Positions 37,808 to 64,000 of a DNA stretch of 64,000 nt are shown one piece after another. The notes beneath the pieces are model-generated. The model did no database searches. It worked only from the letters and a program-made list of their open reading frames with translations, and was not told the origin of the DNA. Source of the stretch: Mesorhizobium jarvisii (GTDB lineage: Bacteria; Pseudomonadota; Alphaproteobacteria; Rhizobiales; Rhizobiaceae); NCBI RefSeq assembly GCF_003601985.1, contig NZ_QZXA01000003.1:496001-560000 (forward strand). Direction: 5' to 3'. The position numbers were made by a program, and so were the translations under genes. Every line of letters begins with the position of its first letter. Position 1 is the stretch's first letter.

Positions 37808-37832
37808 GGAACGGAGGGGCGCTCACGGCGTT
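37808..37832 (+). promoter_or_regulatory. EcfG-type (GSR) promoter upstream of the 78-aa gene
   Basis: GGAAC, 16 bases, CGTT on the plus strand. The -10 ends 28 bases before the ATG at 37861, so the leader would be about 20 bases. The sequence is an exact match to the alphaproteobacterial general stress response consensus. Confidence 0.75.
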
Positions 37833-37860: not shown

Positions 37861-38097
37861 ATGGCTACGTTCAGGGAAATGCGGGTTCTGGAGATCGTCG
37901 AAAACGGCTCCCTGACCCATGACGAGAAGGTCGCGGAACTGCGCGAGATCGAATCCGAGGCCCGCGGCCTGCAACGAGCCGCGTCGGAGAGTTCCATGGG
38001 TGATGATGACGGCTGGCAGGACGATCTGCGCCAGGTTCGCCTTGCGCTCGACAAGCTTGGCGCGAAGGAACCGAAGAAGGGCGCGGCATCGCTGTAA
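37861..38097 (+). CDS. Small acidic protein of unknown function under an EcfG-type promoter
   Basis: 78 aa; GGGAG precedes the ATG. Mostly helical and charged, with LREIESEARGLQRAASESSM in the middle and a lysine-rich end KEPKKGAAS. No signal peptide or membrane helix is visible. I do not recognise a family. The promoter upstream (GGAAC-16-CGTT) suggests stress induction. The lipoprotein gene at 38127 converges on it. Confidence 0.7.
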   Translation: MATFREMRVLEIVENGSLTHDEKVAELREIESEARGLQRAASESSMGDDDGWQDDLRQVRLALDKLGAKEPKKGAASL

Positions 38098-52632: not shown

Positions 52633-53457
<825 letters not shown>

Positions 53458-53607
53458 GGCCTGCCGACCGCCCGAGATGCGCTGATCGGCATGGCCGGTT
53501 GCCGCTCACGTGATATGCCAGTGATCGCGATGGCTTGGCCTTGCCATTGTGTTGGCCTGACGACTTGCCCATAAAGGTCCGGTATTGCTCATGGACCGCA
53601 TCATCCG

Positions 53608-55248
53608 TTGAAGAAACTTTTTCCAATCGTTGCGTTCATCGCCGTAGCGCTGATCAGCATGACCATGGCGGGGTTCGCCTATTTCGCGACGCAGGAAGCC
53701 TCCCGCATCAAGTTCGAAGCGGCGGCCGACGACGCGCTCAACCGGATCGAGAGCCGTATCGATCTGCATTTGTCGCTGCTGCGGTCGACACAGGCCCTGT
53801 TCGACGCCCGCAATGGAGATATCTCCCACAGCGAGTTCAAGGCGTTTTTCAACGCGCTGGACATCGACAACAATTTCGCCGGCCTGCGGGGCATCGGATT
53901 CCTCAGGCTCGTCAAGACGGGGGACGAGGCGGCGGCCGAACGAGACATCCTGCACGATTTCGGCGCCAGCCATCCGATCTATCCGGAGACGACGCAGCCC
54001 TGGCGCACGCCCATCATGCTCTTCGAGCCGCTGGATCCGTCCAACCAGACGGGCATCGGCTACGACATGTTCAGCGAACGAGTGCGGCGCGCGGCGATCG
54101 AGCAGGCGATGGCCGACGACAAGCAGCACGCGAGCGGGCTGGTGCAACTGGGCCAGGGCACAGGCGCGACACAGACCTTCCCCGGCTTCCTGGTTTTCGT
54201 GCGGCTCAACGTCGAAACCGCGCCAGAGGTCATCAACGCATCGCGATCCTCGACCGCGGGCTTTCTCTATGCGGCCTTCCGGGCGCGGGACCTGTTCCAG
54301 ATCGCGCTCAGTCGCGCGCCGCTGCTGCCGGTCAACACCGAGATCTATGACGGCGCGGTGAGCGGCGACAATCTCTTGTTCCGGTCGGAGACCCCACCGG
54401 CCTCCGCCTTTGGCGACCGGCTGCTGGTCACCCGCAAGCTCACGGTAGCCGGCCGCCGGTGGACGGTGCTGTTTCGGCCGACCAGCGCCTTCTCGCAGCC
54501 GTCGTCGCGCGCCATCCCTGTGATGCTGGGGCTGTTCGGCCTGCTCGCGGCGGGCGCCATCGCGCTGGTGGCGCGCTATCAGGAGCGCGCCTATGAGGCG
54601 GCCTCGCGCCTGCACGAGACGACCGAAAAGAGCCTGCTCGAAAAGGACCTGATGCTGCAGGAGATGAAGCATCGCATCAAGAATTCGATCACCCGGGTGC
54701 TGGCGATCGCGCGGCAGACGGCGTCGCGGGCGACCGACGTCAACGAGTTTTCGGCGTCTTTTTCGGCCAGGCTGCAGGCGATGGCAGCCTCCCAGGACAT
54801 GCTGACGCGCTCGCGCTGGCAGAAGGCCGATCTCGCAGACCTCCTGCGCATCGAGCTTGGCCAGGTATTCGGCAAGGACCTCCCCGAGGGGTTGTTGTCG
54901 GGGCCGGAGGTGCTGCTCGACGAGACCACGACGCAGGCGCTTGGCCTGACCTTCCATGAGCTGGCGACCAATGCGCTCAAATATGGCGAAGCCGGCAATT
55001 CCGCCAATTCGCTCAGGAGCGACTGGGCGCTCAAAGTCGAGTGGTCGGTGGAAGGGCGCGGGCGGGAGCGGACACTGGCGCTGAACTGGCGGGAGGCCGG
55101 GAAGAAAAAAGTCGAGGCGCCGGCCGAGACCGGATTCGGCACCAAGCTGATCGACCTCAACGTCACGCGCGAACTGCGCGGCACGATCAAGCGCGATTTT
55201 CAGGCCGACGGTCTGAAGGTGGAAATCAAAATTCCGCTGACAGGCTGA
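53608..55248 (+). CDS. CHASE-domain HWE-family histidine kinase
   Basis: 546 aa starting at a TTG at 53608, as an upstream ATG (53591) opens a 6-codon frame that ends over this start. A membrane helix at 4-27, then a periplasmic CHASE domain (about 40-240), a second helix (about 305-330) and the HWE kinase: EMKHRIKNSITRVLAIARQT, TFHELATNALKYGEAG and LNWREAG, the H, W and E residues that define the family. It senses an external signal. Its response regulator is not adjacent, but the GSR genes lie close by. Confidence 0.85.
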   Translation: MKKLFPIVAFIAVALISMTMAGFAYFATQEASRIKFEAAADDALNRIESRIDLHLSLLRSTQALFDARNGDISHSEFKAFFNALDIDNNFAGLRGIGFLRLVKTGDEAAAERDILHDFGASHPIYPETTQPWRTPIMLFEPLDPSNQTGIGYDMFSERVRRAAIEQAMADDKQHASGLVQLGQGTGATQTFPGFLVFVRLNVETAPEVINASRSSTAGFLYAAFRARDLFQIALSRAPLLPVNTEIYDGAVSGDNLLFRSETPPASAFGDRLLVTRKLTVAGRRWTVLFRPTSAFSQPSSRAIPVMLGLFGLLAAGAIALVARYQERAYEAASRLHETTEKSLLEKDLMLQEMKHRIKNSITRVLAIARQTASRATDVNEFSASFSARLQAMAASQDMLTRSRWQKADLADLLRIELGQVFGKDLPEGLLSGPEVLLDETTTQALGLTFHELATNALKYGEAGNSANSLRSDWALKVEWSVEGRGRERTLALNWREAGKKKVEAPAETGFGTKLIDLNVTRELRGTIKRDFQADGLKVEIKIPLTG

Positions 55249-55346
55249 GACGAATATTCAGGCCGACAGCAAATGGCACGCCCATACGTGCAAAATCCGG
55301 AGGCCGGCGAACCGGCCTCCGGATCGAAGTTTCGACTATCGCCGAA

Positions 55347-55592
55347 TCAGTTGCAGCGGGCCGTGTAGATCCGGCCGCGATGATCGCGATACTGGCAATA
55401 ACCATTGCGCAGGTTGCGCACCAGCAGGCCGGACCCGGCACCGACAGCTGCACCGATCAGCGCGCCCTTGCCGCCGCCGACCAGACCGCCGATACCGGCG
55501 CCAATCAAGCCGCCGCCAACCACGTCCTGCTCGGTCGAGGTGCAGCCGCTGAGAGCGGCAACCGCAACCATGGCAATAATCATCTTCCGCAT
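55347..55592 (-). CDS. Glycine-zipper outer-membrane lipoprotein
   Basis: 81 aa from the ATG at 55592 (GAGGAG upstream). Lipobox LSGC near residue 16, then a glycine-zipper (GAGIGGLVGGGKGALIGAAV) of the YMGG or 17-kDa antigen type and a C-terminal YCQYRDHRGRIYTARC with two Cys. It is probably a small envelope lipoprotein that inserts or associates with membrane. Expression under stress is likely but no EcfG promoter was found here. Confidence 0.75.
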   Translation of the reverse strand: MRKMIIAMVAVAALSGCTSTEQDVVGGGLIGAGIGGLVGGGKGALIGAAVGAGSGLLVRNLRNGYCQYRDHRGRIYTARCN

Positions 55593-55675
55593 AGAGTCAC
55601 TCCTCACTTTGTGTCCACACTTTGGTAAGCTCCAGCAGCCATTTAGCATGAAATGACGGCCTTTGCTGCGCGAAT

Positions 55676-56002
55676 TTATTCTTGGCTAAGATAGTCTTTT
55701 TCTGGGCGCGCCGCATTCGATGCCATGACAAGGCTGGAAATGGCAAGAGAGGCGTCGAGGCTGCCGTCGGGAAGCACCTTCCAGACGACCTGGTCGTAGT
55801 CATCCTCAAGTGCTGGATCGACAGCGAGACATCTGGCGACGATGTGCTGCGCCTGCCCCTGCACGTCGCCCATGGCAAACGGCCGTTCGGCGGTGCATTC
55901 GTCGGCGTTTTCGAAAATGCTCACCGGCACCTGCAGCTCACGACAATCGGTCATCGAGTTGCTGCAGCCGATGACAAGCAACAATGCAGCGATGTGTTCC
56001 AT
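55676..56002 (-). CDS. Small secreted protein under an EcfG-type promoter (unknown function)
   Basis: 108 aa from the ATG at 56002, chosen by the GAGAGGAC site and the promoter only 25 bases upstream. A short hydrophobic start (IAALLLVIGCSNSMTDCREL), possibly a lipobox-like LVIGC, is followed by CTAERPFAMGDVQGQAQHIV and a charged end. Three or four Cys. I do not recognise a family. Longer frames upstream to 56194 are less likely because the promoter would lie inside. Confidence 0.65.
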   Translation of the reverse strand: MEHIAALLLVIGCSNSMTDCRELQVPVSIFENADECTAERPFAMGDVQGQAQHIVARCLAVDPALEDDYDQVVWKVLPDGSLDASLAISSLVMASNAARPEKDYLSQE

Positions 56003-56026
56003 GGCGACATGTCCTCTCGCCTCAAC

Positions 56027-56052
56027 AACGGCCCGTATCGGCCAAAAGTTCC
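56027..56052 (-). promoter_or_regulatory. EcfG-type promoter (17-base spacer) for the 108-aa gene
   Basis: On the minus strand GGAAC, 17 bases, CGTT. The spacer is one base longer than in the other matches but within the known 16/17 range. The start codon is 25 bases from the -10. Confidence 0.6.
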
Positions 56053-56130
56053 TGAGCGGTCGGGGTGACATGCGAATAATGCCGGCGCTGAACCGGTTAA
56101 CAGCGCGCACTGTTGCCAGCAGGGGTTCGG

Positions 56131-56520
56131 TCAGGTCAGCTGGAACATAGCGATGAGGAGAATTGTCGAGGCCGCCGCCAGGACGATGCCCCACAGCAAT
56201 GTGTGATGCGGCGAGCTAAGCGGTTCCGCGGATGCTTCATGATCCTGGAATTCGCCCATCGAAACACGGGCAGCCTGTTCCAGTCTGTTCATGTCGGCGA
56301 CCGCCAAGCATTCCTCCCACACCGTGCCGCAACCCAGCGGATTGCAGCGGCATCTGGGAAAAACAGCATCCGCCCTTATGGTGAACAGCCGGTTAAGGAT
56401 CGTTGATTGCGGCCAGAGCCGGATGATTTCTGGTCGGATCGACCTGAAATCTGAATCCGCCTCTAAATCAAAGAGATAGCGCAAGATCTCTGGGCAAACG
56501 GTCTCCCTTTGTCCAGACAT
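56131..56520 (-). CDS. Hypothetical protein with C-terminal membrane helix (uncertain)
   Basis: 129 aa from the ATG at 56520. The C-terminal 20 residues LLWGIVLAAASTILLIAMFQ form a clear membrane helix. The N-terminal half has several Cys (FPRCRCNPLGC) and mixed charge, and no homology that I recognise. An internal ATG near 56292 would give a 53-aa tail-anchored protein instead. Whether the gene is real is not certain. Confidence 0.35.
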   Translation of the reverse strand: MSGQRETVCPEILRYLFDLEADSDFRSIRPEIIRLWPQSTILNRLFTIRADAVFPRCRCNPLGCGTVWEECLAVADMNRLEQAARVSMGEFQDHEASAEPLSSPHHTLLWGIVLAAASTILLIAMFQLT

Positions 56521-56534
56521 CACGCTCTAGTCGT

Positions 56535-57569
56535 TCACTGCGTCTCGAAATTGCTGTGTGGGACGACAAGACGGTATTCAAGGCGGCCGTCCGCGATGTC
56601 GAGGCTTGCGGTTCCGCTCAGGGATGCCGGCACCACCCGCTCCAGCGCGACGCTGCCGAAACGCTTTTGGCTCCCTCGGCCGCCATTGGTTCCTATGGCT
56701 TCGGCCCATGTCAGCGAGAGTGTGACCTCGCCAGGGGCGATGATCTCGAGATTGGCGGTCACCTCGACGAATCCATCCCGTCGGGACAGGGCGCCGTAGC
56801 TGACCGAGTTGACTGCGAGTTCATGCATCGCCAGGCCGATATGCAGTGCGGCATTGGGATTGAGATAGGGGTTGGCGCCCCGGAGGCGAAGGCTATGCGA
56901 TGTGTTCGTGCCATAGCGGCCGACCTGGCTCGTCACCAATTCATGAAGCGCCGCACCTCGCCAGTTGGAAGATGTCACCAGATCCTGGGAGGAGGAAAGC
57001 GACTGCAGCCGGCCGCGAAAGCGCGTGAGGAAGTCGCCGATGCCGTCGGAATAGCGACCGGTCTGCGTCGCGATGCTCTGGATGATCGCCAGCAGATTCT
57101 TCGAGCGGTGGCTGACCTCGCGCAGCAGCGTCGTCAGCGTCTGTTCGCGCCGCTTCTGCTCGGTCGTCTCGACCATGGTGGTGACGACACCTTGCACGTC
57201 GCCGGCGTCGCCGCGGTCGGCATCGACCCAGACCTGGAACCAGCGTACGCCGTTTTCGACAGGAACACTGATCTCAAGGCGCTCCGGGTTGCCGGTGGCG
57301 ACCACTTCGCGCTTGGCGGTGCTGATGCGGTCGGCCTGCGCCATAGGCAGGATGCCATTGCCGTCGGAGTTGTCTGAAATCCAGGGCGCGCGCATGTTGC
57401 GGGCCCAGACGGTTTTCATGTCGCGATCCTGATAGAGGACGGAAATGCCGGCATTGTGCAGTGCGTGAAGAAGAGCCCGGCCAAGCTGCATGCCACTTTC
57501 GGCCGGATGCATGGCGATGACTTCGTCGCTCCGTGCGCCTTCCGTCTTATCTGCAGTCCTGGAACGCAT
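56535..57569 (-). CDS. HWE-family histidine kinase with one PAS-like domain, EcfG-controlled
   Basis: 344 aa from the ATG at 57569, the best fit to the promoter 30 bases upstream. A PAS-like sensory region (LLHALHNAGISVLYQDRDMK to MVETTEQKRR) precedes the HWE core: LREVSHRSKNLLAIIQSIAT, LAMHELAVNSVSYGALS and LTWAEAIG. No membrane helix is seen, so it senses internally. Lying 1.5 kb from phyR and bearing an EcfG promoter, it is a good candidate for a PhyK-like kinase feeding the stress response. Confidence 0.8.
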   Translation of the reverse strand: MRSRTADKTEGARSDEVIAMHPAESGMQLGRALLHALHNAGISVLYQDRDMKTVWARNMRAPWISDNSDGNGILPMAQADRISTAKREVVATGNPERLEISVPVENGVRWFQVWVDADRGDAGDVQGVVTTMVETTEQKRREQTLTTLLREVSHRSKNLLAIIQSIATQTGRYSDGIGDFLTRFRGRLQSLSSSQDLVTSSNWRGAALHELVTSQVGRYGTNTSHSLRLRGANPYLNPNAALHIGLAMHELAVNSVSYGALSRRDGFVEVTANLEIIAPGEVTLSLTWAEAIGTNGGRGSQKRFGSVALERVVPASLSGTASLDIADGRLEYRLVVPHSNFETQ

Positions 57570-57598
57570 CGGTCGATCTGTCCACCCAACGCACGCTG

Positions 57599-57623
57599 AA
57601 CGGCTCACTATGAAATGGGTTCC
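57599..57623 (-). promoter_or_regulatory. EcfG-type promoter for the HWE kinase
   Basis: On the minus strand GGAAC-16-CGTT. The -10 lies 30 bases before the ATG at 57569. Confidence 0.7.
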
Positions 57624-57758
57624 CAAATGAAGTTTCCGAGGAGCCATCCCCCCAAAAACGGTCCGCCGGACGGTCTCCTTTGAAGGATACCGCCCGGCGG
57701 TGGCTGGAAACCGTTTGAGGGGTGCGGCTTCCAGTGTTCGCTCGGAGAAGCGCTCGCC

Positions 57759-57923
57759 TCACGCCCGTCTGAACAGGCCGGCCAGGAGCGAAATGACCAG
57801 GAAGGCGAGAAAGATGAAGAACAATATCTGCGCTATGCCGGCGGATGTACCGGCGATGCCGCCGAAACCAAGCGCGCCGGCGATAATCGCCACAACGAGA
57901 AATACGAGCGCCCAGTAAAGCAT
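57759..57923 (-). CDS. DUF1328 small membrane protein
   Basis: 54 aa with AAGGAGAT upstream. The family start [20 protein letters not shown] and the [19 protein letters not shown] segment are clear, with a basic C-terminus. DUF1328 proteins are short two-helix membrane proteins in many proteobacteria, often stress-induced; function unknown. An EcfG-type promoter precedes it. It is too short for usual length filters. Confidence 0.88.
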
Positions 57924-57953
57924 GGTTCATCTCCTTCCGAATGCTGCAGGGAA

Positions 57954-57978
57954 AACGTGGGTGGGTGCGGTTTGTTCC
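57954..57978 (-). promoter_or_regulatory. EcfG-type promoter for DUF1328
   Basis: On the minus strand GGAAC-16-CGTT, 31 bases before the ATG at 57923. Confidence 0.75.
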
Positions 57979-58013
57979 ACCCTTTGCCGAAAAAGGCGAT
58001 GCTTGCAAACCGT

Positions 58014-58139
58014 TAGAGCAACTCCAGGAAAAGTGTGAACGATTTTCCCGGGAAAGCGCGTAGCGCGTTCCTTTGGGAATTGCGTCAAAACAACAACTTA
58101 GAGCAGCTCGACGTTTCCCTGACACGGTGAACTGCTCGA
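58014..58139. repeat. Dispersed rhizobial repeat (TTGACGCAATTCC family), copy 2
   Basis: Reverse of copy 1: AGAGCAACTCCAGGAAAAGTG, a palindrome CCCGGGAAAGCGCG-TAGCGCGTTCCTTTGGG, GGAATTGCGTCAA and an end hairpin (GAGCAG/CTGCTC). It occupies the gap between the phyR terminator and the DUF1328 promoter. Confidence 0.8.
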
Positions 58140-58182
58140 GGCAAAGCGCCTCGAAATTCGCGACGGATGGGTCCGGTTTGGC

Positions 58183-58215
58183 AAAAAAACCGCCCGACGC
58201 ATTCGCATCGGGCGG
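58183..58215 (-). terminator. Terminator of phyR
   Basis: On the minus strand: CCGCCCGATGC-GAAT-GCGTCGGGCGG followed by seven T. One G:U pair. It lies about 40 bases after the phyR stop. Confidence 0.9.
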
Positions 58216-58253
58216 CCTTTGGGTTTGGCTTTCCCGGCTGGAAAGGCAGCGAC

Positions 58254-59048
58254 TTATGCGGCGGCCTTCGCCTGACGATCGAAGAACAGCGCCTGGCTGA
58301 TCAGTGCCTTGACCATGTCGGGATTGAACGGCTTGGTCACCAGGAAGGCCGGTTCGGGGCGTTCGCCGGTCAGGAGGCGTTCGGGAAAGGCAGTGATGAA
58401 GATCACCGGCACGGAGGTTGACGACAGGATCTCGTTGACCGCCTCGATGCCCGAACTGCCGTCGGCGAGCTGGATGTCGGCCAGGACCATCTTCGGCCGC
58501 GTCTTGCCGAACATCGTCACCGCTTCGGCGTGCGTGCGCGCGGTTCCAACGACACGATGGCCGAGGCTCTCGACCATCTCCTCTATGTCCATGGCGATCA
58601 GCGGTTCGTCCTCGATGATGAGCACATCGGTCGCCACCTGGCGGGAAATCTCGTTGCTTGCCTGGGCAAGCAGCTCGGAGAATTGCTGGTCGCCGACGTC
58701 GAGGATCTCGGCTGCCTCGTCCTCGCTGAAACCCTCGACGGCAACCAGCAGGAAGGCCTGGCGCGGAAGGGGCGCGATGGCGTTGAGATTGGCGGCGGCG
58801 CGCTGTTCCCACGCCGATTGGGCCTGCTCCTGCGGCACGCGGATGGCGACGGACGTGAAAAGTTTGGCGAAGACCTTGTACAGAGCGATACGGTCGCTCG
58901 ATGCATCGGGGAAGATGTCGACATCGGCGATGATGGCCTCAAGCATCGCAGCGACCAGCGCGTCGCCGCTCTCTTGCGATCCCGAGACGGCGCGCGAGAA
59001 GCGGCGCAGGAACGGCAGGTGCGGTGCGATGGTAGCGGATAAACTCAT
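58254..59048 (-). CDS. phyR: General stress response regulator PhyR
   Basis: 264 aa: an N-terminal ECF-sigma-like domain (about 1-135, with LPRQAFLLVAVEGFSEDEAA as sigma-4 mimic) and a C-terminal receiver domain (VLIIEDEPLIAMDIEEMVES, phospho-acceptor VLADIQLADGSSG, switch ITAFPERLL, KPF). When phosphorylated it binds NepR and frees EcfG. It is divergent from nepR-ecfG and has its own EcfG-type promoter, forming a positive loop. Confidence 0.96.
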   Translation of the reverse strand: MSLSATIAPHLPFLRRFSRAVSGSQESGDALVAAMLEAIIADVDIFPDASSDRIALYKVFAKLFTSVAIRVPQEQAQSAWEQRAAANLNAIAPLPRQAFLLVAVEGFSEDEAAEILDVGDQQFSELLAQASNEISRQVATDVLIIEDEPLIAMDIEEMVESLGHRVVGTARTHAEAVTMFGKTRPKMVLADIQLADGSSGIEAVNEILSSTSVPVIFITAFPERLLTGERPEPAFLVTKPFNPDMVKALISQALFFDRQAKAAA

Positions 59049-59121
59049 GATAAGACGTCTCCCTCAGTATGACGCGATTGCCCGGATTGCAGGTCAAGCT
59101 GATTGCAAGCCCCGCTAATAC

Positions 59122-59146
59122 AACGCGGGTTTTCTCAAAAAGTTCC
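59122..59146 (-). promoter_or_regulatory. EcfG-type promoter for phyR
   Basis: On the minus strand GGAAC-16-CGTT. The -10 is 74 bases from the phyR start. It is back-to-back with the nepR promoter, only 9 bases apart. Confidence 0.85.
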
Positions 59147-59155
59147 GGCCGATAT

Positions 59156-59180
59156 GGAACGAAAAGCCGATAACGGCGTT
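59156..59180 (+). promoter_or_regulatory. EcfG-type promoter for nepR-ecfG
   Basis: GGAAC-16-CGTT on the plus strand. The -10 lies 91 bases before the nepR start. Autoregulation of the operon is expected. Confidence 0.85.
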
Positions 59181-59271
59181 TTGCGGTCGGGATGGGCAAC
59201 CAGACGAGGGAGCCGCTTGCCTTGTGCCGAGTTGAGTATGAGCGGCCTAGTGCTGGGAATATAAGGGCGAA

Positions 59272-59475
59272 ATGAAGGATATGACGAAAGATATTTTGGC
59301 TGGCGCCGAGGGCAGGCGCCGGAACGGCGTCGGTGACCCGCTCGGGGCCAACTCCGAAATCGGGCGCAAACTCAAACAATATTATGACGAGCTGGTCTCT
59401 GACGATGTGCCGGATCGCTTTGCCCAGCTGCTCAGCCAGCTGGAACAGGCCGAACCCGCACAGAAGAAGGACTGA
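59272..59475 (+). CDS. nepR: Anti-sigma factor NepR
   Basis: 67 aa. The core IGRKLKQYYDELVSDDVPDR is the NepR signature of two helices that wrap around EcfG; the N-terminus is flexible and basic. It holds EcfG inactive until phosphorylated PhyR takes it. The stop is 3 bases before the ecfG start, typical of tight stoichiometric pairing. Confidence 0.95.
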   Translation: MKDMTKDILAGAEGRRRNGVGDPLGANSEIGRKLKQYYDELVSDDVPDRFAQLLSQLEQAEPAQKKD

Positions 59476-59478
59476 GCC

Positions 59479-60030
59479 ATGGCAGCGGTCTCCCAAGGCT
59501 TCAAGACCGATCTGCTTGGGGCAATCCCGAGCTTGCGGGCCTTTGCCGTGTCGTTGACGCAGAATGCCGACAAGGCCGACGACCTCGTTCAGGAAACGCT
59601 GGTCAAGGCCTGGGACAAGCATGAGAGCTTCCAGCCGGGCACCAACCTCAAGGCATGGCTTTTCACCATCCTGCGCAATGAATTCTATTCGCAGATGCGC
59701 AAACGCGGCCGCGAAGTGCAGGACAGCGACGGCATCATGACGGCCAGGCTCGCGGTGCATCCGGCCCAGCACGGCCAACTCGATCTCAAGGACTTTCGTG
59801 GCGCTCTCGAGCAGTTGCCAGAAGACCAGCGCGAGGCCATCATCCTCATCGGCGCATCGGGCTTTTCCTATGAGGAGGCCGCTGAAATCTGCGGTTGCGC
59901 GGTCGGAACGATCAAGAGCCGCGTCAGCAGGGCGCGCACGCGCCTGCAGGAGATTCTCAAGATTTCCGGCGAGGACGAATACGGTCCCGATGCGATCTCG
60001 GCCCAGGTCACGGGGACTGCGGCGCATTGA
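59479..60030 (+). CDS. ecfG: ECF sigma factor EcfG (general stress sigma)
   Basis: 183 aa. Sigma-2 region: LRAFAVSLTQNADKADDLVQ, ETLVKAWDKHESFQPGTNL and AWLFTILRNEFYSQMRKRGR; sigma-4 region: ALEQLPEDQREAIILIGASG and SYEEAAEICGCAVGTIKSRV. It recognises GGAAC-CGTT promoters, of which eight occur in this window. It is encoded with its anti-sigma NepR, facing phyR. Confidence 0.95.
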   Translation: MAAVSQGFKTDLLGAIPSLRAFAVSLTQNADKADDLVQETLVKAWDKHESFQPGTNLKAWLFTILRNEFYSQMRKRGREVQDSDGIMTARLAVHPAQHGQLDLKDFRGALEQLPEDQREAIILIGASGFSYEEAAEICGCAVGTIKSRVSRARTRLQEILKISGEDEYGPDAISAQVTGTAAH

Positions 60031-60031
60031 C

Positions 60032-60066
60032 GTGAGATCCGGGTAGCGGACCCGGATCGATCTCAC
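60032..60066. terminator. Hairpin between ecfG and the convergent response regulator
   Basis: GTGAGATCCGGGT-AGCGG-ACCCGGATC then TCTCAC after two extra bases. No T run. It starts two bases after the ecfG stop and touches the other gene's stop, so it serves both. Confidence 0.55.
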
Positions 60067-60443
60067 CCCGGAGATCCGCGTCCATAGGCCAGCGCCACCG
60101 CTTCGACGAGATCTTCGCCCGAATAAGGCTTGGTGACGAGCTTCACCCCTGGAAAGGATGCCTTGATCTCGTCCGCATCGGAATAGCCGGAGGCAAACAC
60201 GAAAGGCACGCCTGTCTCACGCAGGCCGGCGGCGAATTCGAGCGTCGAGGTGCCGCCCAGCATCAGATCGACGATGGCCGCGTCGAATTGCGTTGCCACC
60301 TTTCGGCCATCGATCTCGGCCAGGTCGCGGGCAACCACCACCTCGCCGGCGCCGTGGTCGCGGCAGAGCTGCTCGACATCCATGGCGATGAGGAATTCGT
60401 CCTCGAGGACGAGAATTCGCAATCCGTCAAGCAAATTGGGCAC
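60063..60443 (-). CDS. Single-domain response regulator (FATGUY-like)
   Basis: 126 aa, only a receiver domain: LRILVLEDEFLIAMDVEQLC, phospho-acceptor IVDLMLGG, and PFVFASGYSDADEI, close to the FATGUY motif (PFxFATGY) of the alphaproteobacterial GSR single-domain regulators such as SdrG and MrrA; here Ser replaces Thr. Lys in KPYSGEDLVEAV completes the site. It is convergent with ecfG and probably passes phosphate in the stress phosphorelay. Confidence 0.8.
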   Translation of the reverse strand: MPNLLDGLRILVLEDEFLIAMDVEQLCRDHGAGEVVVARDLAEIDGRKVATQFDAAIVDLMLGGTSTLEFAAGLRETGVPFVFASGYSDADEIKASFPGVKLVTKPYSGEDLVEAVALAYGRGSPG

Positions 60444-60522
60444 GGTAGTGGCTCCTTGAAACGCCGGGAGTCATGATCGCAATTCGGCGCGCTGTCATTT
60501 AAAAAAGACATGGCCCTAGCGC

Positions 60523-60547
60523 GGAACTCCGATCCTGGCAAAACGTT
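60523..60547 (+). promoter_or_regulatory. EcfG-type promoter for the Crp/Fnr-like regulator
   Basis: GGAAC-16-CGTT on the plus strand. The -10 ends 44 bases before the ATG at 60592. Confidence 0.75.
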
Positions 60548-60591
60548 TTAGACATACCTGCTGACCGGCAGGCTTTCGAAGAGGGGTCGAA

Positions 60592-61353
60592 ATGCCAGGC
60601 CAGAATGGGCGCTCCCTATCCAGTCGACAATATCCTTGCGAGAAGTGCCCTTTGCGGCCATTGCCGGTTTTCCGCGAGTTCGAAAAGCAGGAGCTGGCCT
60701 TCATCAGTACCTTCAAGAAAGGGGAACTGGCGGTCGACAAGTGCGCCACGGTCATCGTGGAAGGAAGCCACAGCGCTCATCTCTACACGGTACTGTCCGG
60801 CTGGGCGTTCCGCTACAAGCTGTTGCCGGACGGTCGCCGGCAGATCCTCAACTACCTCATGCCCGGCGATCTCATCGGCCTGCAAGGCAGCGTCATGGGG
60901 GAAATGCAGCATTCCGTCGAGGCCCTGTCGCCAATGCTGCTTTGCGTCTTCGAGCGCGACAGTCTGCATGAACTTTACCGCAACCATCCTGGTCTCGCCT
61001 ACGACATCACCTGGATCGCGTCACGCGAGGAACGCATGCTGGACGAGAACCTGCTCAGTGTCGGCCGCCGCAGCGCGATCGAGCGCGCCGCCTATCTGAT
61101 TGCCTTCATCGGCAGCCGTGCCAAGGTCGTGGGGCTGAACGGCAAGCAATCCATCCAGATTCCGATTACGCAACAACATATCGCCGACACGCTCGGCCTT
61201 TCGCTGGTTCACACCAACAAGACGATCCGCAAACTGATGGATCGCAAGCTGATTCTCTGGCGCGATGGTGGTTGCGAGGTGGTCGATGCGGAAGGGCTCA
61301 AGCAACTCGCCGGCTGGGAAGGGCTGGGCGAGGGGCGTCGCCCGCTGATCTGA
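60592..61353 (+). CDS. Crp/Fnr-family transcriptional regulator
   Basis: 253 aa. An N-terminal cysteine pair PCEKCPLRPL, then a cyclic-nucleotide-like beta roll (LYTVLSGWAFRYKLLPDGRR, ILNYLMPGDLIGLQG), a dimer helix and an HTH with ITQQHIADTLGLSLVHTNKT. It has only the two N-terminal Cys instead of the four of FNR, so an iron-sulfur cluster is unlikely. It is under an EcfG-type promoter and so may extend the stress cascade. The target genes are unknown. Confidence 0.82.
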   Translation: MPGQNGRSLSSRQYPCEKCPLRPLPVFREFEKQELAFISTFKKGELAVDKCATVIVEGSHSAHLYTVLSGWAFRYKLLPDGRRQILNYLMPGDLIGLQGSVMGEMQHSVEALSPMLLCVFERDSLHELYRNHPGLAYDITWIASREERMLDENLLSVGRRSAIERAAYLIAFIGSRAKVVGLNGKQSIQIPITQQHIADTLGLSLVHTNKTIRKLMDRKLILWRDGGCEVVDAEGLKQLAGWEGLGEGRRPLI

Positions 61354-61405
61354 GACGCGTTTCTGGCCATGGATTGGCGATTGGTGCGCATGCGTATGTT
61401 TTCGG

Positions 61406-61511
61406 CTAGAGCAGTTCACTGTTTCACGGAAATAGCGAACTGCTCTATCTCTTTGTTTTGACGCAACTCCGGACGGAAAACCGTTTCACACTTTTCCTAG
61501 AGTTGCTCTAG
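61406..61511. repeat. Dispersed rhizobial repeat (TTGACGCAATTCC family), copy 3
   Basis: The first part is a perfect 11-bp hairpin TAGAGCAGTTC/GAACTGCTCTA (61407-61447); then TTGACGCAACTCCGGACGG and a closing TTTTCCTAGAGTTGCTCTAG. It ends 14 bases before the EcfG promoter of the next gene. Confidence 0.8.
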
Positions 61512-61525
61512 TTTGTCCCAATGCC

Positions 61526-61550
61526 GGAACCTTGAGGCGCAAGGCGCGTT
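61526..61550 (+). promoter_or_regulatory. EcfG-type promoter for the YqjD/YqjE-like pair
   Basis: GGAAC-16-CGTT on the plus strand. The -10 ends 30 bases before the ATG at 61581. Confidence 0.75.
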
Positions 61551-61580
61551 TGAAATCGAGCAATCACAAGGAGTTAAGCA

Positions 61581-61907
61581 ATGGCAACCGCCGCAGGAAA
61601 GAGCGCCAACGAGGCGCGGGCGAATTCGGACCTCGAAGCCGACATCAGGCAGTTGAAGGCGGATATCGACAAGCTCACCAAGCAGTTGGCCAAAACCGGC
61701 GAACACGGCTATGGCACTGCCCGCCGCGCGGCCACCGAAGGCGTCGAGCAATTGCGTGCGCAGGGCGAAGCGGCGTTCGACAGCCTGCGCGGCAGTGCCA
61801 AGGACATCGAGGCGCAGTTGCTGGCAAATGTCCGCGAGAAGCCGGTGACGTCGCTGGCGATCGCCGCCGGCGTCGGCTTCCTCTTCGCGCTGCTCGCACG
61901 TCGCTAG
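61581..61907 (+). CDS. DUF883 protein (YqjD/ElaB-like)
   Basis: 108 aa. Coiled-coil N-terminus (SDLEADIRQLKADIDKLTKQ), helical middle, and one membrane helix at the C-terminus (PVTSLAIAAGVGFLFALLAR) ending in Arg. That is the YqjD/ElaB layout, proteins that in E. coli tether ribosomes to the inner membrane in stationary phase. AAGGAG precedes the ATG and an EcfG-type promoter lies upstream. The partner gene follows 8 bases later. Confidence 0.88.
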   Translation: MATAAGKSANEARANSDLEADIRQLKADIDKLTKQLAKTGEHGYGTARRAATEGVEQLRAQGEAAFDSLRGSAKDIEAQLLANVREKPVTSLAIAAGVGFLFALLARR

Positions 61908-61915
61908 TTCCCCAA

Positions 61916-62374
61916 ATGGGACTGTTGGCATCCCTGCTCTCGGGTTTCGCCTCGGGTGAAACCGTGGCCGCCATACGTCGCGCACGTACGGCGGCCATCG
62001 TCTATGCGATTGCCGCTTTGGCGGCATTGTGCGGTCTCGGCTTCCTGGTCGGGGCAGGCTATATCTGGGCCGCCGTCCGCTATGGATCGTTCGCCGCCGC
62101 GCTTGGCTTCGGTGTCGGTTTTCTGGTGATCGCCGGGCTCGTTCTCCTGGTCCATCGTTTGATGTCGGGCGCCCGTGCCCGCCGCGAGGCAAGGCGGCGC
62201 AGTGCTGACATGAAGGCGATCGGCATCACGGCCGCCCTCGCCGTGCTGCCGACCTTGCTCAAGGGAAAAGGTGGCCTCGGTGTCATTCTGGGCCCGGCCG
62301 TGGCGCTCGCCGCCTATGCCATCTACCGCGAGAACGTGAAGCCCGACGATCCGGATGCCGGGGAGGGGAAATAA
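61916..62374 (+). CDS. YqjE-like (DUF1469/phage-holin-superfamily) membrane protein
   Basis: 152 aa from the ATG at 61916. Two hydrophobic segments (TAAIVYAIAALAALCGLGFL and FAAALGFGVGFLVIAGLVLL) after a short amphipathic start, then a basic loop ARARREARRRSADMK and a third hydrophobic part ending DDPDAGEGK. It resembles E. coli YqjE, encoded after YqjD. The pairing with the DUF883 gene is the main support. Function unknown. Confidence 0.7.
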   Translation: MGLLASLLSGFASGETVAAIRRARTAAIVYAIAALAALCGLGFLVGAGYIWAAVRYGSFAAALGFGVGFLVIAGLVLLVHRLMSGARARREARRRSADMKAIGITAALAVLPTLLKGKGGLGVILGPAVALAAYAIYRENVKPDDPDAGEGK

Positions 62375-62400
62375 CGCCCCGGCCTGGGATCAAAGATCCG

Positions 62401-63981
62401 TCACTTGGACAGATCTTCCAGCGGCATCGATATTTCGGCGAACACGCCTTCCGGCCGGAATTCATGGGTCACTTCGCTTGAAATGACCTTGGCCAGGCTG
62501 CGGCGGATGAGGATCGAGCCGAAGCCGTGGCGCTCCGGCGGGGCGACTTCGGGGCCGCCGCTTTCGCGCCAGGTCAGCACCAGGCGGCGGTTGCCCTTCC
62601 TGCCTTGCGTCTTCCAGCCGAGATCGACCTTGCCCGATGCAATCGACAGCGATCCATGTTGCAGCGCGTTGTTGGCCAGTTCGTGCAGGATAAGCCCGAG
62701 CCCGACGGCTTGGTCCGGCGACAGCAAGAGATCGGCGCCGGAGATCGTGATACGCGGCTGGTCAGCGGTGTCGAACGGCCTGATCTCGATCTGGACGAGT
62801 TCGCGGATGCCGATGCCGCGCCACTCGCGGTCGGACAAAAGGTTGTGGGCGATGCCCAGCGCCTGAAGCCGGGCGCCGAAGGCATCGAGGAATTCGCTGG
62901 GCTGGCGGGCATGACGCACGGTCTGCGTCGCCAGCGCCTGGACGGTCGCCAGCGTGTTCTTGACGCGATGGTTAAGCTCGCGCAGCAGAAGCCGCTGCCG
63001 CTCCTCGCCGAGCTTGCGTTCGGAGATGTCGTAGTTGACGCCGAAGATCAGCGTCGGCTTGCCATCGCCGTCGCGCTCGATGACGCGGCCGCGCGTGGCC
63101 ACCCAGCGCGGCGGATGAAAGCCCTTCACCCGGTATTCGCCGAAATAGTCGTCGCTGCCGGACAGGGCATCGCGAAAGCGGGTTTCGGTCTGGTAGACAT
63201 CGCGCGGGTCGATGGCGGTCAGGATGTCGCGCGCCCGCAGCCGGGTGGAGCGCGGCAGGTTGAACAGTTCCGATAGCCGGACATCGCATTCGATCATGTC
63301 GGTGCGGATGTCCCATGCCCAGCTGGCGAGCGAAGCCGCGTCGAGCGCGATGGCGCGCCGCTTTTCCTCGCGCGCCAGGGCTGCTTCGGCAATGGCGCCG
63401 CTGCGGGTGGCGTCCTTCAAGGTGAACAGGCTGGCGGCGAGGCCGGCCAGCGTCTTCAACTGGTCGAGCTTTGCCCCGGAAGGATAGGCGTGCGGTTTGC
63501 GGTCGAGCACGCACAGCGTGCCGATCCTGGCGCCTGCCACCACCATCGGCGCGCCGGCATAAAAGCGCACATGATGTTTGCCGGTGACCAGCGGGTTGGT
63601 TCTGAAGCGCGGGTCCGTCGTTGCGTCCGTCACCACCATGGGCTCGTCGCCGGCGGCGATGGCATGGGCGCAGAAAGAGATGCCGGTCGCGGTTTCGGTC
63701 TCGTCGAGGCCAAAGCACGACTTGAACCATTGCCGCTCGATGTCGACGAGTGTGACAAGGGCGGTGGGCGCCTGCATCACGGCCGCGGCAAGGCTGGTGA
63801 TGCGGTCGAAATCCGGGTCAGCCGCCGTATCGAGCATCTCCAGCCCGTGCAGCACGGCCAGCCGGTCTTCGGCATTGACCGCCAGCGCCACCTCGGCCGG
63901 CAGGCTCGCTCGTATTTCTACCTTGTTATCCACCCCAAACCCCAAATGCCCATGCCGGTCTTCGCAGTCCTGCCGACGCAC
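62401..63981 (-). CDS. GAF-PAS HWE-family histidine kinase
   Basis: 526 aa; the start is not settled (ATG at 63981 or GTG at 63933), and a GTG start gives 510 aa. A GAF domain (about 40-190: LVDIERQWFKSCFGLDETET, ISFCAHAIAAGDEPMVV, GTLCVLDRKPH), a PAS domain (about 215-340) and the HWE core LRELNHRVKNTLATVQALAT, ILHELANNALQHGSL and LTWRESGG. No membrane helix, so it is a soluble sensor that may bind light or small molecules. No cognate regulator lies next to it. Confidence 0.85.
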   Translation of the reverse strand: MRRQDCEDRHGHLGFGVDNKVEIRASLPAEVALAVNAEDRLAVLHGLEMLDTAADPDFDRITSLAAAVMQAPTALVTLVDIERQWFKSCFGLDETETATGISFCAHAIAAGDEPMVVTDATTDPRFRTNPLVTGKHHVRFYAGAPMVVAGARIGTLCVLDRKPHAYPSGAKLDQLKTLAGLAASLFTLKDATRSGAIAEAALAREEKRRAIALDAASLASWAWDIRTDMIECDVRLSELFNLPRSTRLRARDILTAIDPRDVYQTETRFRDALSGSDDYFGEYRVKGFHPPRWVATRGRVIERDGDGKPTLIFGVNYDISERKLGEERQRLLLRELNHRVKNTLATVQALATQTVRHARQPSEFLDAFGARLQALGIAHNLLSDREWRGIGIRELVQIEIRPFDTADQPRITISGADLLLSPDQAVGLGLILHELANNALQHGSLSIASGKVDLGWKTQGRKGNRRLVLTWRESGGPEVAPPERHGFGSILIRRSLAKVISSEVTHEFRPEGVFAEISMPLEDLSK

Positions 63982-64000
63982 CGGCCCGTGACAAGCTTGC

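Follow-up and report, generated by a model that had tools for sequence, protein, structure and literature searches.

A dense, conserved cluster of EcfG-type promoters around phyR, nepR and ecfG in Mesorhizobium jarvisii, with closely spaced divergent -35 boxes

Genes and promoters of the locus

We analysed a window of 64,000 nt from Mesorhizobium jarvisii (host genome 6.6 Mb in 48 contigs) that carries phyR, nepR and ecfG. Its protein families identify the locus as that of the canonical PhyR-NepR-EcfG general stress response (GSR), a known system, and around the three genes ten exact matches to the promoter pattern GGAAC-N16/17-CGTT lie within 9.4 kb. Seven are inside the window and three past its end, as the window edge cuts the cluster; positions below are window coordinates. 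The pattern was scored as an exact match on both strands, with the reversed pattern as control, and protein families were assigned with Pfam and NCBIfam profiles at E 0.001. A first-pass annotation had listed seven such motifs by position and strand, with the genes they precede; all seven are confirmed, and so are the HWE kinase, PhyR, NepR, EcfG, Crp/Fnr regulator and small effector-looking proteins among its contents. It had put the motif-to-start distances at 25-91 nt, of which the upper end holds and the lower end becomes 24 nt.

At the core, phyR (58254..59048, minus strand) would encode the anti-anti-sigma response regulator. Both a sigma-like domain and a receiver are present (Pfam PhyR_sigma2, PhyR_sigma-like and Response_reg; NCBIfam PhyR family, 3e-116, above cut-off). 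It is divergent from nepR-ecfG, and both units stand behind the pattern. The phyR promoter (59122-59146, minus) lies 73 nt from the start codon, and the nepR-ecfG promoter (59156-59180, plus) lies 91 nt from its own. The two face apart with their -35 boxes back-to-back, reading GTTCC, 9 bp (59147..59155), GGAAC. The predicted anti-sigma factor gene nepR (59272..59475, plus; Pfam NepR, 9e-17, above cut-off) holds the sole NepR match genome-wide. It ends four positions before the start of ecfG (59479..60030, plus; Pfam Sigma70_r2 and r4_2; NCBIfam PRK12547, 2e-107, above cut-off), so that the two form one apparent operon. The product of ecfG, a general-stress extracytoplasmic function (ECF) sigma factor that we take to belong to the group named ECF15, matches the Mesorhizobium huakuii NBRC 15243 protein exactly and is 96-99% identical to those of many other Mesorhizobium. 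Contig C6 encodes another EcfG-like sigma factor, with 46% identity to this one (region C6:76336-79986), and three exact motifs stand 1.2-3.2 kb upstream of it (C6:76336, 76488 and 78286); the genome's only NepR match is not beside it.

On the phyR side, three further genes on the minus strand follow a motif. A 108-aa secreted protein (open reading frame (ORF) 55676..56002), probably a lipoprotein to judge by eye from LLLVIGC near its N-terminus, has no Pfam or NCBIfam match at E 0.001; its promoter (56027-56052, minus) has a spacer of 17 and lies 24 nt from the start codon. An HWE histidine kinase of 344 aa (56535..57569, ATG at 57569; Pfam HWE_HK, 3e-23, with no second Pfam domain) has its promoter at 57599-57623 (minus), 29 nt from the ATG. 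DUF1328, a small membrane protein of 54 aa (57759..57923; Pfam DUF1328, 8e-16), is preceded at 30 nt by the motif at 57954-57978 (minus).

Downstream of ecfG, a single-domain response regulator (60063..60443, minus; Pfam Response_reg, 3e-8) lacks an EcfG promoter; its PFVFASGY stretch resembles the FAT GUY motif. The Crp/Fnr-family regulator of 253 aa (60592..61353, plus; Pfam cNMP_binding and HTH_Crp_2; best NCBIfam profile FnrL, far under cut-off) has its promoter at 60523-60547 (plus), 44 nt from the start codon. The motif at 61526-61550 (plus) lies 30 nt before a YqjD/ElaB-like (DUF883) gene of 108 aa (61581..61907, plus). A YqjD/YqjE pair had been named here: the YqjD likeness finds some backing in DUF883_C (1.6e-5, under cut-off at 24.9 of 27 bits), and the name YqjE finds none in Pfam or NCBIfam, where the adjoining protein (ORF 61916..62374, plus; membrane-type by eye) has no match at E 0.001. 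Past the window end, exact motifs at contig C32 positions 560006 (plus), 561269 (minus) and 561383 (plus), equivalent to window positions 64006, 65269 and 65383, precede a 57-aa protein, a diacylglycerol-kinase (DAG-kinase)/YegS-type lipid kinase and a PRC-barrel protein, respectively. Three HWE kinases lie within one stretch of 10.4 kb here: the one already described, one with CHASE (53608-55248) and one with GAF (62401-63981, PAS just under cut-off; all by Pfam).

Two inverted copies of a palindromic dispersed repeat of about 100 bp (58014-58145 and 61401-61510) flank the phyR-ecfG-crp core, their ends 35 bp from the DUF1328 promoter and 15 bp from the yqjD promoter. The repeat recurs at 40 or more places in the genome at 71-100% identity (40 candidates were scored) and presumably resembles the rhizobial intergenic mosaic elements. 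No known RNA family reached the gathering threshold in window positions 53000-64000.

Density and conservation of the promoter cluster

The whole window holds eight exact matches; 100 shuffles gave a mean of 0.83 and in no case as many as eight. The eighth (37808-37832, plus), outside the cluster, is intergenic according to our own gene finder, which calls a gene start 28 nt further on at 37861, and is a candidate target. Genome-wide there is no excess of the pattern: we count 145 exact matches and 189 for the reversed control. A bare exact match means little, and it is position and conservation that mark the cluster sites as real. When all 145 matches are considered, the runner-up among separate 9.4-kb windows holds five (C6:90056-97501), and no such window held more than six when 145 sites were placed uniformly at random 3000 times. 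The cluster, with ten, is the densest in the genome. The first-pass annotation had asked whether such density recurs elsewhere, and it does not. The promoter cluster that it described is real and conserved, and was bounded too narrowly, the three promoters past the window end belonging to it as well. The observation was correct and the cluster larger than seven, and the interpretation built on it is partly supported.

Sixty of the 145 matches lie at most 150 nt upstream of a same-strand gene start, compared with none of just 14 controls in the same DNA. The gene finder behind this count is a crude one that overlooked the 108-aa gene and gave the PRC gene a wrong start (eight of the ten cluster sites are among the 60), and it saw about 0.63 Mb of DNA chosen around motif matches, overlaps counted. 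Promoter-like sites thus counted number roughly 60 genome-wide, about one in six of them within the cluster.

For comparison we used 80 named relatives' loci with up to 10 kb on either side of ecfG. They comprise a Mesorhizobium set of 32 (L043-L072, L091 and L096; ecfG identity 94-100%) and a group of 48 made up of L073 (94% ecfG identity) and all more distant loci; for L031, positions relative to the ecfG start were off by 4000 and were not used. A family sample of 40, one per genus, came from the upper part of a NepR score list (88 genomes matching of 101 searched), and a class sample of 20 loci came from 19 of 25 matching genomes (144 searched). The 80 named loci contain 584 motifs against 41 reversed-pattern controls, of which 556 motifs and 31 controls fall between -4 and +7 kb from the ecfG start.

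All but one of the ten promoters are retained nearly throughout the Mesorhizobium set. Counting the loci in which each gene was found, the exact motif precedes the orthologue of DUF1328, phyR, nepR, yqjD and the lipid kinase in 32/32, of the 108-aa gene in 25/25, of the PRC gene in 31/31, of the 57-aa gene in 30/31, of crp in 22/24 and of the HWE kinase in 24/32. Across all 80 loci the 108-aa protein has a homologue in 41, and 40 of these carry the exact motif upstream. In the same Mesorhizobium set no exact motif precedes any of five tested neighbours: the CHASE-HWE kinase (0/31), the GAF-HWE kinase (0/24), the single-domain response regulator (0/32, with a loose motif in one) and the glyoxalase-like and glycine-zipper genes (0/31 for one, 0/32 for the other). 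Of the three HWE kinases, only that at 56535-57569 has the EcfG-type promoter in this genus; outside the set, the exact motif stands before the GAF-HWE kinase in ten loci and before the glycine-zipper gene in one. Three Mesorhizobium loci (L061, L063 and L071) have their next motif about 0.23 kb past the crp-promoter position (about 1.05 kb past the ecfG start), a pattern consistent with a lost crp gene and a retained promoter.

The analysis shows directly which genes and promoter sequences are present, where they lie and that the promoters are selectively conserved. Averaged per promoter, the nine core positions keep the window base in 91-100% of aligned relatives (core identities 0.91-1.00), compared with 41-78% in spacers and 26-83% in 40-bp flanks. 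The core of the nepR-ecfG promoter reaches 1.00, and that of the 108-aa gene 0.99 against 0.38 in its upstream flank. Such cores kept above their flanks are the signature of working promoters.

Several observations weigh against a uniformly conserved and widespread cluster. The HWE-kinase promoter is the least conserved of the ten, inexact in 8 of the 32 Mesorhizobium relatives and with the lowest single core position (84%). Clustering also weakens outside the genus: the best count in any 9.5 kb is 8-10 (median 9) in the Mesorhizobium set, with a median of 5 (range 2-12) in the 48 other named loci, 4 (0-10) in the 40 family genomes and 2 (0-7) in the 20 class loci. Since density falls away from the genus, dense clustering does not belong to the switch in general. 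Having a few EcfG promoters nearby is common, and it is in Mesorhizobium and some relatives that they are packed. The highest count in any locus, 12 exact motifs around ecfG, is found in an uncultured member of the Rhizobiaceae (L084).

Gene-order conservation, rather than selection for promoter density as such, could account for the clustering, and we give this explanation somewhat less than an even chance. The same promoters and the same gene order recur together across Mesorhizobium. Order alone does not yield promoters, as the five tested neighbours that never carry one make plain, but co-regulation that simply follows neighbourhood remains compatible with promoter-less neighbours. Accidental clustering of chance matches to a short consensus in GC-rich DNA fits the genome-wide parity with the reversed control, but we reject it as next to impossible in view of the local density, the positions before gene starts, the core conserved above spacer and flanks and the promoters at orthologous genes (in all 32 relatives for five of the ten), conservation contradicting it for nine of the ten, with the HWE-kinase site the weakest.

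Spacing of the back-to-back -35 boxes

We next consider how far apart the -35 boxes of phyR and nepR stand. Pairs were sought with at most one mismatch per site and the pair with the fewest mismatches was taken; ties went to the smaller gap in a survey of 141 loci and to the gap nearest 9 in a survey of 256. In the first survey, 112 loci have a pair, with a gap of 6-11 bp in 103, 19-22 bp in seven, 40 bp once and 65 bp once; the remainder are 21 loci without a pair, six with phyR and ecfG on one strand and two without a usable match. The family sample has a pair in 33 of 40 genera (32 at 6-11 bp, one at 19), and the class sample has one in 8 of 20 loci, six of these at 6-8 bp. The second survey, to which gap-tolerant fetches were added, contains 198 loci with a usable phyR start and 171 pairs, reduced to 190 and 164 when eight repeats were removed. 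Of the 164 distinct phyR-linked pairs, 143 have a gap of 5-11 bp, 10 of 18-23, 8 of 25-32 and 3 a longer one. No pair falls at 12-17 bp, a range that does occur in some of the 56 (of 115) pattern-fetched loci that were dropped for want of a usable adjoining phyR. Patterns limited to gaps of 0-30 or 2-32 supplied 53 of the 164 pairs, including all eight at 25-32 bp.

The gap sequence is free, with 29 different sequences in the 32 Mesorhizobium. On a PhyR tree (FastTree only; 170 of 171 fragments, one being too short), exact gap length needs at least 73 changes and gap class only 10, with no tip at 12-17 bp. Length has changed often and class seldom, so that length moves within bounds. The longer gaps are richer in AT (0.60 and 0.53, versus 0.41 in the short class), and their A/T runs exceed those of same-letter shuffles, the observed mean of 7.3-7.4 being reached by 0 of 2000 in a test that includes related sequences. 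The long classes exceed the short one by about one and two turns of the helix (p about 0.007 for a period of 10.5, from 13 genus-level long gaps grouped by hand). We regard this phasing as suggestive, a hint, because the tree has just 10 gap-class changes in all.

The gap of the dagk/prc pair ranges from 25 to 120 bp across 31 Mesorhizobium. Among 66 other divergent exact pairs, 13 have a gap of 4-10 bp, seven of them beside yqjD and six beside the GAF-HWE kinase (five of these six in Phyllobacterium), and the rest stand at 16-80 bp; not every divergent EcfG pair therefore needs a short gap. In the family, 116 of 394 genomes carry an exact pair with a gap of 0-30 bp. A looser pattern matches 134 of 397 genomes of the order, some of which are also hit by the reversed control. 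Three class loci with two family codes (L233, L242 and L244) have no back-to-back pair; between phyR and nepR they carry two antiparallel EcfG sites superimposed at an offset of 6-7 bp, one of the sites with one mismatch.

One possible reading is that selection maintains the spacing as a regulatory element and has done so in several alphaproteobacterial families. Two EcfG-polymerases, brought together on a favoured face of the helix, would then compete with or assist one another, link the supply of anti-anti-sigma factor to that of sigma and anti-sigma factor, and damp noise at entry into stress; longer gaps would add about one or two turns and an A/T tract, and other loci would superimpose the promoters. 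We consider this reading less likely than not. The helical-phase signal is a post hoc one drawn from few clades. In the class, an exact pair with a gap of 0-30 bp is rare (16 of 386 genomes), and only 4 of 16 fetched class loci, the window's own included, had phyR adjoining the pair when compared with the window PhyR. Moreover, within the genus the gap and the short leaders of yqjD, DUF1328 and the 108-aa gene are equally stable in length (standard deviation over square root of the mean 0.17 for the gap and 0.14-0.18 for the leaders). We had considered length conservation within Mesorhizobium as proof of a constraint on the gap and dropped it on this account, using the wider sample and the empty 12-17 bp zone instead.

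The same leaders lend support to mere inheritance, in which the gap preserves an ancestral arrangement and has no function of its own. All the loci share a common ancestor, and the leaders are mostly 21-32 nt in the family sample too (DUF1328 in 14 of 19 genera, yqjD in 11 of 18, the 108-aa gene in 12 of 14). Inheritance sits less easily with the many length changes and few class changes on the PhyR tree, with the 29 gap sequences in 32 Mesorhizobium, with a dagk/prc gap that varies widely in 31 of the same genomes and with the similar short gaps at other divergent EcfG pairs (the 13 of 66, yqjD- and HWE526-linked). We consider it a serious contender, though on balance not quite a probable one. 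A further alternative takes the inverted repeat GTTCC-N8/9-GGAAC, with its preferred spacing, for the site of a dimeric regulator that fixes the distance. Gaps of 5-11 bp plus 18-32 bp are loose for one dimer, and the half-sites are the -35 consensus and are found singly at other promoters, which makes this explanation highly improbable.

In the phyR promoter, spacer positions 1-5, directly behind the -35 box, are T in 97-100% of the 32 relatives, and the DUF1328 promoter has a nearly invariant AAAC at the same place. The T run may tune sigma preference between EcfG paralogues.

Regulatory interpretation and comparison with known systems

We consider it highly probable that this is a core general-stress locus, with PhyR, NepR and EcfG ringed by EcfG-driven genes and feedback on the switch itself. 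That the ten promoters depend on EcfG is likely by analogy with the consensus established in relatives, and we infer the wiring as follows. Under stress, HWE kinases are thought to phosphorylate PhyR, which would take NepR off EcfG. EcfG-RNA polymerase would then fire the ten cluster promoters, those of phyR and nepR-ecfG as well as those of a kinase, the Crp/Fnr regulator and small proteins. The resulting reset of switch-protein amounts would combine positive and negative feedback: as NepR lies in the same EcfG-driven operon as EcfG, induction would also strengthen the brake. The self-amplification that the first-pass annotation proposed would be one possible net result.

The arrangement of the -35 boxes might, in addition, cause the polymerases of phyR and nepR-ecfG to hinder or position one another, so that sigma and anti-sigma factor output would be tied to that of the anti-anti-sigma factor, a proposal in which our confidence is low. 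To go by the usual promoter footprint, a 9-bp gap would place the sigma-4 and alpha domains of one polymerase on or beside the -35 box of the other, and the A/T tract of the long gaps is a possible site for the polymerase alpha subunit. A fixed ratio, we propose, would benefit a switch whose sigma, anti-sigma and anti-anti-sigma factors all arise under EcfG. It bears on a general question, namely whether the ratio and noise of sigma-switch parts depend on how far apart divergent promoters stand.

There is a partial precedent in the bidirectional promoters of Escherichia coli, for which the parts of Warman et al. 2026 (PMC12825309) that we drew on report that strong activity one way lowers the opposite transcript and its cell-to-cell variation, with no competition at basal activity. 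As in our proposal, polymerases in two orientations can compete. The E. coli promoters share a pseudo-symmetrical core, whereas at this locus each promoter has its own core and contact is confined to the upstream ends, the two 25-bp sites standing 9 bp apart without overlap. Superimposed sites do occur in the distant relatives L233, L242 and L244.

A title and abstract-start search returned no open-literature paper on either -35 spacing or promoter clustering, which is weak evidence of novelty as subscription journals mostly lay outside it; a title search of the literature on Mesorhizobium together with EcfG or the general stress response returned none on this locus. What may be new is how narrowly the spacing between the two back-to-back promoters is limited. 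That the EcfG promoters at phyR and nepR-ecfG are divergent and autoregulated is on record (PMC4814048, PMC3892343, in the parts used here): ecfG-nepR is mostly divergent from phyR, with EcfG promoters on both units (PMC4814048). The distance between the -35 boxes goes unmentioned in the consulted parts of PMC4814048; here it is mostly 5-11 bp and more rarely 18-32 bp. Neither the spacing nor the cluster comes up in the parts used of the other GSR papers cited below.

Related systems, known to us from portions of the papers cited, agree with the locus in much else. In Sinorhizobium meliloti, rsiA1 and rsiB1 depend on RpoE2, and their starts have been mapped (PMC3616915). In Rhizobium etli, the EcfG1 target consensus is GGAAC-N16-CGTT and ecfG1 is autoregulated (PMC3892343). 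The table of EcfG-dependent genes of Sphingomonas melonis Fr1, with motifs, includes Crp-type, PRC-barrel and small secreted proteins, and places genes 1442, 1444 and 1446 beside phyR (1445) and ecfG (1447) (PMC6599016). Sphingopyxis granuli has the same promoter consensus (PMC7083833). The Mesorhizobium locus offers about ten well-supported EcfG targets in a legume-symbiont genus. Like the EcfG1, RpoE2 and S. melonis systems, it has the three switch proteins, the divergent layout and the promoter consensus; unlike usual GSR loci, for which the family and class medians given above are 4 and 2, it packs ten such promoters into 9.4 kb.

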